A DNA stretch of 64,000 nucleotides, taken from positions 1,551,501-1,615,500 of the forward strand of contig NZ_CP043627.1 in the NCBI RefSeq assembly GCF_016804325.1, in the 5' to 3' direction. Below, one piece after another: positions 13,633 through 49,105 of the stretch; position 1 is the first letter of the stretch, and the number at the start of each line of letters is the position of its first letter. The stretch comes from Methylobacterium aquaticum. Its GTDB lineage: Bacteria > Pseudomonadota > Alphaproteobacteria > Rhizobiales > Beijerinckiaceae. The notes below the pieces were generated by a model, which was given only the letters and a program-made list of their open reading frames with translations, searched no databases and had not been told where the DNA came from. The translations under genes were made by a program, and so were the position numbers.

Positions 13633-13877
13633 TCAGGAGGTGGGCTCGTCCTCCTCCACCGCGTCGTCGGGGGCAAAGGCGGTTGCTCGGTCGCAGCGTG
13701 CACGAAGTCGTCGTCCAGCGGGCCGACGAGATCACGGAGCCAATCCCATTCACCCGGGACGTCCGCCGGCATCTCGACCGGCTCGTCCAGGGCTGCCTCG
13801 ACGTCGGCATCGAGCGGTTGCACGCGCTCCTGAAGCCAGTCCAAGCTTCCCGGCACCGGCTTGTCGGGCTCGATCAT
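13633..13877 (-). pseudogene. Small acidic protein, frame interrupted by one base
   Basis: From the ATG at 13877 (GGAG six bases upstream) the frame encodes MIEPDKPVPGSLDWLQERV and continues as an acidic, Trp-containing protein. At the G-run 13669-13673 the frame switches to an unlike, Arg/Pro-rich tail ending at 13587. Restoring one base in that run gives instead a tail PPDDAVEEDEPTS with a stop at 13633, in keeping with the acidic character of the rest (about 81 aa). The family is unknown; an antitoxin-like small protein is possible but not supported by any motif. The frameshift may be a sequence error. Confidence 0.5.
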
Positions 13878-13938
13878 GCGCATCTCCAGGGTTGCGGCCC
13901 ATCATGACGATGGGCCGTCCCCTTAAGGCAAGCGCCCC

Positions 13939-16900
13939 CTACTCCGCCGCCACGCGATACCGCGCCGTGTCGTAGTTCAGCACCGGGCCGAGCCAGCGCT
14001 CGACCTCGGCCACGTCCATCCCCTTGCGGGCGGCGTAATCCTCGACCTGGTCGCGCTCCACCTTGGCGACGCCGAAGTAATGCGCGTCGGGATGGGCGAT
14101 GTAGAGGCCCGAGACCGAGGAGCCCGGCCACATCGCGTAGGATTCGGTGAGCTTGACGCCGATCCGCGGCTCGGCCTGGAGCAGGTCGAACAGAGTCGTC
14201 TTCTCGGTGTGGTCGGGCTGGGCCGGGTAGCCCGGGGCCGGGCGGATGCCGGCATAGGGCTCGGTGACGAGGTCCGCCGGGGAATAGGTCTCGTGCGCCG
14301 CGTAGGCCCAGAATTCCCGCCGCACCCGCTCGTGCATCCGCTCGGCGAAGGCCTCGGCGATGCGGTCGGCGAGCGCCTTGACCAGGATCGACTTGTAATC
14401 GTCGTTCTGGCGCTCGAACCGCTCGGCGATCCGCACCTCTTCGAGACCCGCCGTGACCACGAAGCCGCCGACATAGTCGGAGAGCCCGCTCTCGACGGGG
14501 GCGACGAAGTCCGACAGGCAGGTATTGGGCCGCCCGTCGCGCTTCGAGAGCTGCTGGCGCAGGCCGTGGAAGGTGGCGAGCGGGTCGGTCCGGCTCTCGC
14601 CAGTGAACAGCCGGATGTCGTCGCCGACCGCGTTGGCCGGCCAGAAACCGATCACCGCCTTCGGGTTGAACCACCGCTCCTCGACGATCTGGCGCAGCAT
14701 CGCCTGCGCATCCTCGAACAGGGCGCGGGCGGCCGGTCCCTGCTCGGGGTCGTCGAGGATCGCCGGATAGCGGCCCTTGAACTCGTAGGTCTGGAGGAAC
14801 GGCGTCCAGTCGATATAGGGAACGAGCTCCGCCACCTCGTAGCTGCGGAACACCCGCGTGCCGGTGAAGGTCGGCTTGACCGGCGTGTAGGCCGACCAGT
14901 CGGCCTTGAAGGCGTTGGCACGGGCTTTCGCCAGGGCCAGACGCTGCTTGTCGGCCTCCGAGCGGGCATGGGCCTCGGCGACGCGCTTGTACTCGGCGCG
15001 CACCGTTTCGATCGTCTGCCCCCTGGTGTCGGGCGAGAGCAGGTTCGAGACCACGCCGACGGCGCGGCTGGCATCGGTCACGTAGACCGCCTGGCCCTTG
15101 GCGTAGGCCGGGTGGATCTTCACCGCGGTGTGGACCCGGCTCGTCGTCGCGCCGCCGATGAGCAGCGGCACGTCGAAGCCCTCGCGCTCCATCTCGGCCG
15201 CGACGTGGACCATCTCGTCGAGCGAGGGCGTGATGAGGCCAGAGAGCCCGACGATGTCGACGTTCTCCTTGCGCGCCGTATCGAGGATCTTCGCCGCCGG
15301 CACCATCACGCCGAGATCGATGATCTCGTAGTTGTTGCAGGCGAGCACGACGCCGACGATGTTCTTGCCGATGTCGTGGACGTCGCCCTTCACGGTCGCC
15401 ATCAGCACCTTGCCGGCCGCCTGCCGGCCGCCGACGCCGCCATTGGCGGCCTTCTCGGCCTCCATGAACGGCATCAGGTAGGCCACGGCCTGCTTCATCA
15501 CGCGGGCCGACTTCACCACCTGCGGCAGGAACATCTTTCCGGCCCCGAACAGGTCGCCGACCACGTTCATGCCGGCCATCAGCGGGCCTTCGATGACGTG
15601 GAGCGGACGGGCCGCCGCGGCGCGGGCCTCCTCGGTATCGGCCTCGATGTATTCGGTGATGCCGTTGACCAGCGCGTGCTCCAGGCGCTTCTCGACCGGG
15701 GCCTCGCGCCAGGCGAGGTCGGCGGTCTTGTCGCGCGCCTGTCCCCCCTCCTTGAAGCGGGCGGCGGCGTCGAGCAGGCGCTCGGTGGCATCCTTGCGGC
15801 GGTTGAGGACCACGTCCTCGCACAGCTCGCGCAGCTCGGCGGGCAGCTCGTCGTAGACCGCGAGCTGGCCGGCATTCACGATGCCCATATCCATGCCGAC
15901 CTTGATCGCATGGTACAGGAACACCGCGTGCATCGCCTCGCGCACCGGCTCGTTGCCGCGGAAGGCGAAGGACAGGTTCGAGATGCCGCCCGAGATATGG
16001 GCGTGGGGCAGGGTCTCGCGGATGATCCGCGCCGCCTCGATGAAGGCGACGCCGTAGCCGTCATGCTCCTCGATGCCCGTCGCCACCGCGAAGACGTTGG
16101 GATCGAAGATGATGTCCTCGGGGGGAAAGCCGACCTGCTCGGTCAGCACCTTGTAGGCGCGGGTGCAGATCGCGACCTTGCGCTCGAGCGAATCGGCCTG
16201 GCCGTCCTCGTCGAAGGCCATCACCACCACGGCGGCGCCGTAGGAGCGGCAGATCTTCGCTTCCGCGATGAACTTCTCCTCGCCCTCCTTGAGCGAGATC
16301 GAGTTCACGATCGCCTTGCCCTGCACGCATTTCAGGCCGGCTTCGATGACCGAGAACTTCGAGGAATCGATCATCACCGGGACGCGGGCGATGTCGGGCT
16401 CGGCGGCGACGAGGTTGAGGAACTCGACCATCGCCTTCTGCGAATCGAGCAGGCCCTCGTCCATGTTGACGTCGATGATCTGGGCGCCGGCCGCGACTTG
16501 GTCGCGGGCGACATCCAGGGCGGCGGCGTAGTCGCCGTTGGTGACGAGCTTGCGGAAGCGCGCCGAGCCGGTGACGTTGGTGCGCTCGCCGACGTTCACG
16601 AACGGGATCTCGGGCGTCAGCGTGAAGGGCTCGAGGCCCGACAGGCGCATCAAGGGCTTCACGGTCGGCGCCCGGCGCGGCGCCTTGCCGGCCACCACTC
16701 CGGCGATGGCGCGGATGTGGTCCGGCGTAGTGCCGCAGCAGCCGCCGACCATGTTGACGAGGCCGCTCTCGGCGAATTCGCCGACGAGCCTGGCCATCGC
16801 CTCCGGGCTCTCGTCGTAGAGGCCGAACTCGTTCGGCAGGCCGGCATTGGGGTAGGCACAGACCAGGGTGTCGCAGGTGCGCGACAATTCATCGATATGC

Positions 16901-47807: not shown

Positions 47808-47984
47808 GGCGCCGGAATCGATAACCCTGCGCGATGCGCGCGGGGGAGGCTCGTGGATGAGCCTTCCCCGCCGGCTTGCGTTCGGGGAGCGCCTTCGCCA
47901 AAGTTCCCGTCCCGTGCGTGCACGGGGCAACGAGTGCGGTTGCCGGCCTTGAACGGTCGGTCGTTCGAGACACGGATCACCCTG

Positions 47985-49105
47985 ATGAAAGTCACCGTCG
48001 AGCGCGCGGCCCTTCTTCGGTCGCTCGGCCACGTGCACCGCGTCGTGGAGCGGCGCAACACGATCCCGATCCTGTCGAACGTGCTGCTGCGCTCGGGCCG
48101 GACGGCCTCCAGCTCAAGGCCACCGACCTCGACATCGAGGTGACCGAGACGATCCCCGCCGACGTGGTCGATGGCGGCGCCATCACGGTGCCGGCCCACG
48201 TCATCTACGACATCGTCCGGAAACTGCCCGACGGCGCCCAGGTCTCGCTCGAGACCAGCGGCGAGACCGGCCAGATGCTGATCCGCTCGGGCCGCTCGCG
48301 CTTCACCCTCGGCGCCCTGCCGGAGGCCGATTTCCCCGATCTCGCCGCCGGCGAGCTGCCGCACGCCTTCGAGCTGCCGGCCGCCGACCTCAAGCGCCTG
48401 ATCGACAAGACCCAGTTCGCGATCTCGACCGAGGAGACGCGCTACTACCTCAACGGCATCTTCTTCCACACCATCGAGGCGGAAGGCTCGCTCAAGCTGC
48501 GGGCGGTGGCCACCGACGGCCACCGCCTCGCCCGCGTCCAGATGGAGGCGCCGGAGGGCAGCGGCGGCATGCCGGGCATCATCGTGCCGCGCAAGGCCGT
48601 GGCCGAGATCCAGAAGCTCGTCGAGGATGGCGGCGAGACCGTCGGCGTCGAGATCTCGTCGGCCAAGGTCCGTTTCAGCTTCTCGTCGGGCGTCACCCTG
48701 ATCTCGAAGCTGATCGACGGCACCTTCCCGGACTACGCCCGCGTCATCCCGACCGGCAACGACAAGCGCCTGACGGTCGAGCGCGACCAGTTCGCCAAGG
48801 CGGTCGACCGCGTCTCGACCATCTCCTCCGAGCGCGGCCGCGCGGTGAAGCTCGCGATGACCGACGGGCGCCTGTCGCTCTCGGTCAATAACCCGGATTC
48901 GGGCTCGGCGACCGAGGAACTGGACGTCGACTACGAGTCGGGCCCGCTCGATATCGGCTTCAACGCCCGCTACCTCCTCGACATCACGGCCCAGCTCGAC
49001 GGCGACACCGCGCTCTTCCGCCTCGCCGATCCGGGCTCGCCGACGGTGATCCAGGACCGCGAGGGCGCGCCGGCGCTCTACGTGCTGATGCCGATGCGGG
49101 TGTGA
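47985..49105 (+). pseudogene. dnaN: DNA polymerase III beta sliding clamp DnaN, frame interrupted
   Basis: Ring-shaped processivity clamp. From the ATG at 47985 the frame reads MKVTVERAALLRSLGHVHRV and continues to NVLLRSG, then loses frame at 48095-48099 (GGGCC). The clamp continues in another frame with GPDGLQLKATDLDIEVTE and ends VLMPMRV at 49105. Adding one base gives 373 aa, the exact family length, with all three clamp domains. Because dnaN is essential and nothing else is damaged, the break is most likely a sequencing error and not a real pseudogene. Confidence 0.95.

Follow-up and report, generated by a model that had tools for sequence, protein, structure and literature searches.

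Within a 64,000-base stretch of the Methylobacterium aquaticum chromosome, referred to here as the window (bases 1,551,501–1,615,500 of the 6.99 Mb main contig in a five-contig genome of 7.28 Mb), four reading frames are interrupted, each at a point where a single base appears to be missing. The question raised by this locus is whether these genes are broken in the organism or only in its deposited sequence. The letters reported in the original prediction at positions 13669, 19480, 44185 and 48095 are correct, and the frame is interrupted at each of them. In window coordinates, the sites are as follows.

13669–13673, minus strand: single-base deficit at GGGGG, the weakest of the four
19480–19484, minus strand: single-base deficit at GGGGG, flagged by the frame model at both penalties
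44185–44189, plus strand: single-base deficit at CCCCC, flagged by the frame model at both penalties
48095–48099, plus strand: single-base deficit at GGGCC, flagged by the frame model only at the looser penalty

The genes that they interrupt are the following.

13674–13883, minus strand: upstream part, still intact, of a small gene with weak conservation, whose frame is broken at 13669–13673
18731–19737, minus strand: gene for a regulator with an ArsR-type HTH and a methyltransferase, split at 19480–19484
43816–44447, plus strand: queE (7-carboxy-7-deazaguanine synthase), split near 44185–44189
47985–49105, plus strand: dnaN (DNA polymerase III beta clamp), single copy, split near 48095–48099

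The two halves of dnaN lie in different frames and match consecutive parts of the DnaN profiles, with PF00712, PF02767 and PF02768 distributed over both pieces. The downstream part (334 residues) is 99% identical to its counterparts in Methylobacterium indicum, M. platani and others, and the relatives' gene forms one open frame of 372–380 residues in 80 of 80 loci. At the 48.10 kb site, all 63 distinct relatives have one base more. The genome contains one dnaN locus and no second copy; dnaN is essential in bacteria, and a cell lacking it is not viable.

The regulator and queE behave in the same way, with one base more in 11 of 11 distinct relatives' sequences at 19.48 kb and in 6 of 6 at 44.18 kb. 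The upstream piece of the regulator matches PF01022 (ArsR-HTH) and the downstream piece matches PF08241 (methyltransferase). The upstream piece of queE (scanned as L155:5316-5681) matches TIGR04508, and the downstream piece, of 85 residues, has no Pfam match. The original prediction spoke of four conserved genes, a description that suits these two and dnaN but not the gene at 13.67 kb, which is small, has no Pfam match at an E-value of 0.01 and is present in 6 of the 10 Methylobacterium genomes searched, including its own. The 13.67 kb site is unflagged by the frame caller at either penalty; two relatives' genomes carry the extra base, of which one is left by a stricter identity filter. The predicted single-base deficit is thus borne out at all four sites by every relative that could be aligned.

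Frameshifts were called with a codon-phase Markov model trained on 538 long genes and containing overlapping-gene transitions and a frameshift state. The model was applied to a 400 kb section of the organism's own chromosome surrounding the window, of which 385 kb were unmasked, and to contigs of three sister species as controls. An earlier version lacking the overlapping-gene states was rejected, as it over-called everywhere (102 calls in the own sequence versus 71, 83 and 63 in the controls). When 310 random deletions were planted in the sister contigs, 200 (65%) were recovered and were placed, at the median, 2 bases from the true position. All rates given here are those obtained at the strict penalty (−25); the looser penalty yields a small excess, with 66 calls in the own sequence versus 41, 48 and 40 in the controls.

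At the strict penalty, the sequence near the window contains 30 deletions and no insertions in 302 kb of coding sequence. The three sister contigs contain 2, 1 and 3 shifts in 254, 307 and 307 kb of coding sequence, respectively, or, pooled over 868 kb, 6 shifts (2 deletions, 4 insertions), which is less than 1 per 100 kb. A further 250 kb from other parts of the own chromosome yielded 11 deletions and 2 insertions, against 3 deletions and 1 insertion across 734 kb from the dnaN loci of 49 relatives. Both counts exclude any shift called within 700 bases of the start of a stretch, as well as the four stretches taken from the smaller contigs. Without these exclusions, the totals were 13 deletions and 7 insertions over 279 kb in the own genome, and 4 and 12, respectively, over 734 kb in the relatives' loci.

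The deletions are mildly clustered, with 10 of 29 gaps shorter than 2 kb against 5.2 expected (P = 0.016), and their density is higher near the window than elsewhere on the chromosome (P = 0.012). Uneven read coverage could account for both. Near 1.43 Mb on the own chromosome (L146, L147), five strict deletion calls fall within about 4.2 kb, each backed by 6–8 distinct relatives; this region is a local patch of poor consensus.

Comparison with relatives was extended to 32 sites, comprising the 30 strict calls together with the dnaN and 13.67 kb sites, which are missed at the strict penalty. The comparison used relatives with at least 82% identity that spanned the site, and identical sequences were counted once. 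Relatives could be aligned at 20 of the 32 sites, and at 18 of these 20 all relatives are exactly one base longer; 13 of the supported sites rest on six or more distinct relatives and 5 on one. At the other two (347342 and 372893, in stretch coordinates), the deletion is unsupported by the relatives, from which we take about one call in ten to be false.

The genes affected are diverse. The 30 strict sites are served by 29 distinct scanned pieces (one piece serves two sites), 27 of which match an NCBIfam family. Split genes include purL, which is present in a single copy, ilvE, a PEP carboxylase gene and one ispH paralog out of two, as well as genes of two-component systems and of ABC transporters. 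The shifts are not confined to dispensable genes, as dnaN, purL and others are among those hit.

Several further features of the window were recorded. A nested palindromic repeat of about 110–130 bases, with 16-base arms about 19 bases apart and additional outer arms, is found at window positions 29600–29651 and 44979–45029. Its arm pairs occur 15 times in 400 kb and 12 times in 320 kb of the own chromosome and are absent from the three sister-species contigs; it is a lineage-specific REP/MITE-like expansion. Twin tRNA-Phe (GAA) genes lie about 85 bases apart at 22529–22604 and 22690–22765, and each of the three sister species examined has this pair too. Between 53500 and 56000 is an island of 55–59% G+C within the 70% G+C window, carrying, in opposite orientations, genes for an EamA transporter and a MocR-like (GntR/aminotransferase) regulator; this island looks acquired.

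The sequence context of the deletions is distinctive. A G/C run of at least 4 lies within 12 bases of 31 of the 41 deletions, against 13.6% of coding positions, and a run of at least 5 lies within the same distance of 16 of the 41, against a background of 2.8%. Among the 200 recovered planted deletions, runs of at least 4 and at least 5 accompany 13% and 3%, respectively; these values are close to background, indicating that the model itself does not seek runs. Run lengths as such are less informative. Per 100 kb, G/C runs of 5 number 126.8 and runs of 6 number 19.0 in the own sequence (with 3.75% of bases masked), compared with 136–141 and 22–24 in the controls; with the own values only slightly below those of the controls, the run-length histogram was judged weak as sole evidence.

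The original prediction placed the lost base within the G/C run, and in this it went too far, although the deficit of one base stands. Some relatives have a G/C run longer than the own run within 11 bases at 5 of 17 sites, and none does at the remaining 12. Six run-of-5 sites are covered by six or more relatives, and at none of them does any relative have a run of 6, whereas of 20 runs of 6 present in the own consensus, 60% are shared with one or more relatives. Either this organism truly has longer runs at these sites, which the assembly shortened, or base calling missed a base adjacent to the run. With these small numbers, we lean towards some losses having occurred beside the run rather than in it. 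Pure run shortening may not suffice for every loss, and it is often impossible to place the lost base inside the run.

By far the best explanation, and in our judgement almost certainly the correct one, is consensus error such as long reads are known to produce. The four frames would then be intact in the living organism, and the deposited consensus would lack single bases in short G/C runs or next to them, making the frames look broken. The source is most likely to be a long-read (nanopore-type) assembly that was incompletely polished; we infer that reads would show the missing bases, and we base the attribution to long reads on the error pattern and the contiguity of the assembly. Systematic consensus error in place of gene decay, as originally proposed, is supported by the deletion bias, the chromosome-wide recurrence, the concentration at G/C runs, the relatives and the single-copy genes dnaN and purL.

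True gene decay, meaning that these single-base deletions are present in the strain itself, accounts for the broken frames as deposited, and also for the occurrence of two calls in some genes (for example, 79285/79585 and 200022/200450), which decay would likewise produce. It would nonetheless require that the essential dnaN and single-copy purL both be inactivated, and that many unrelated genes be hit by shifts that are almost all deletions near G/C runs; we consider it very improbable.

Less probable still is a mutator strain or culture that lacked mismatch repair and gathered real deletions in runs. Cells that have lost mismatch repair are prone to single-base changes in runs, a tendency that fits the association with G/C runs. 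However, MutS and MutL domains are found in open frames of 981 and 714 residues (the check covering domains and frame length), the complete absence of insertions alongside the deletions near the window is one-sided, and a dnaN null would again be inviable.

A third possibility is that the proteins are restored by recoding at G/C runs, through programmed ribosomal frameshifting or through slippage in transcription. In principle, stretches of five G or C can be slippery, but the shift is not conserved: the relatives' dnaN is uninterrupted, the shift is absent from relatives at all but two of the checkable sites, and the dnaN site has no run longer than three. The chance that such recoding explains the pattern is accordingly minimal. 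That the deletions are real in the sequenced cells, with dozens of genes including dnaN rescued by slippage in transcription or translation, is scarcely credible.

Consensus error also agrees with published experience. Systematic homopolymer indel errors in long-read bacterial assemblies are addressed by Homopolish (PMC8011154) and Kastor (PMC12007338). The errors described there resemble those found here, being deletions tied to runs of about 2–8 bases, most of them after 4–5, that fragment many genes; the Kastor report also notes that a minor fraction of the missing bases differ from the run (PMC12007338). In the example given there, A/T runs dominate and about half as many errors fall at G/C (PMC12007338), whereas here, in a genome with a G+C content of about 70%, the runs consist of G or C.

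Taking the 41 calls in 552 kb of coding sequence together with a sensitivity of 65% and about one false call in ten, a rough extrapolation suggests that several hundred genes of this assembly would be mislabelled as pseudogenes. The genome is listed as 99.99% complete despite these errors, which indicates that such scores do not reveal the fault. We therefore regard the interrupted frames as an ordinary assembly artefact and not as a real biological feature. The finding matters for the use of the data and not for the biology of the organism: the apparent gene losses are probably not biological, and claims of gene loss, pathway gaps or pseudogenes derived from this assembly should await polishing.
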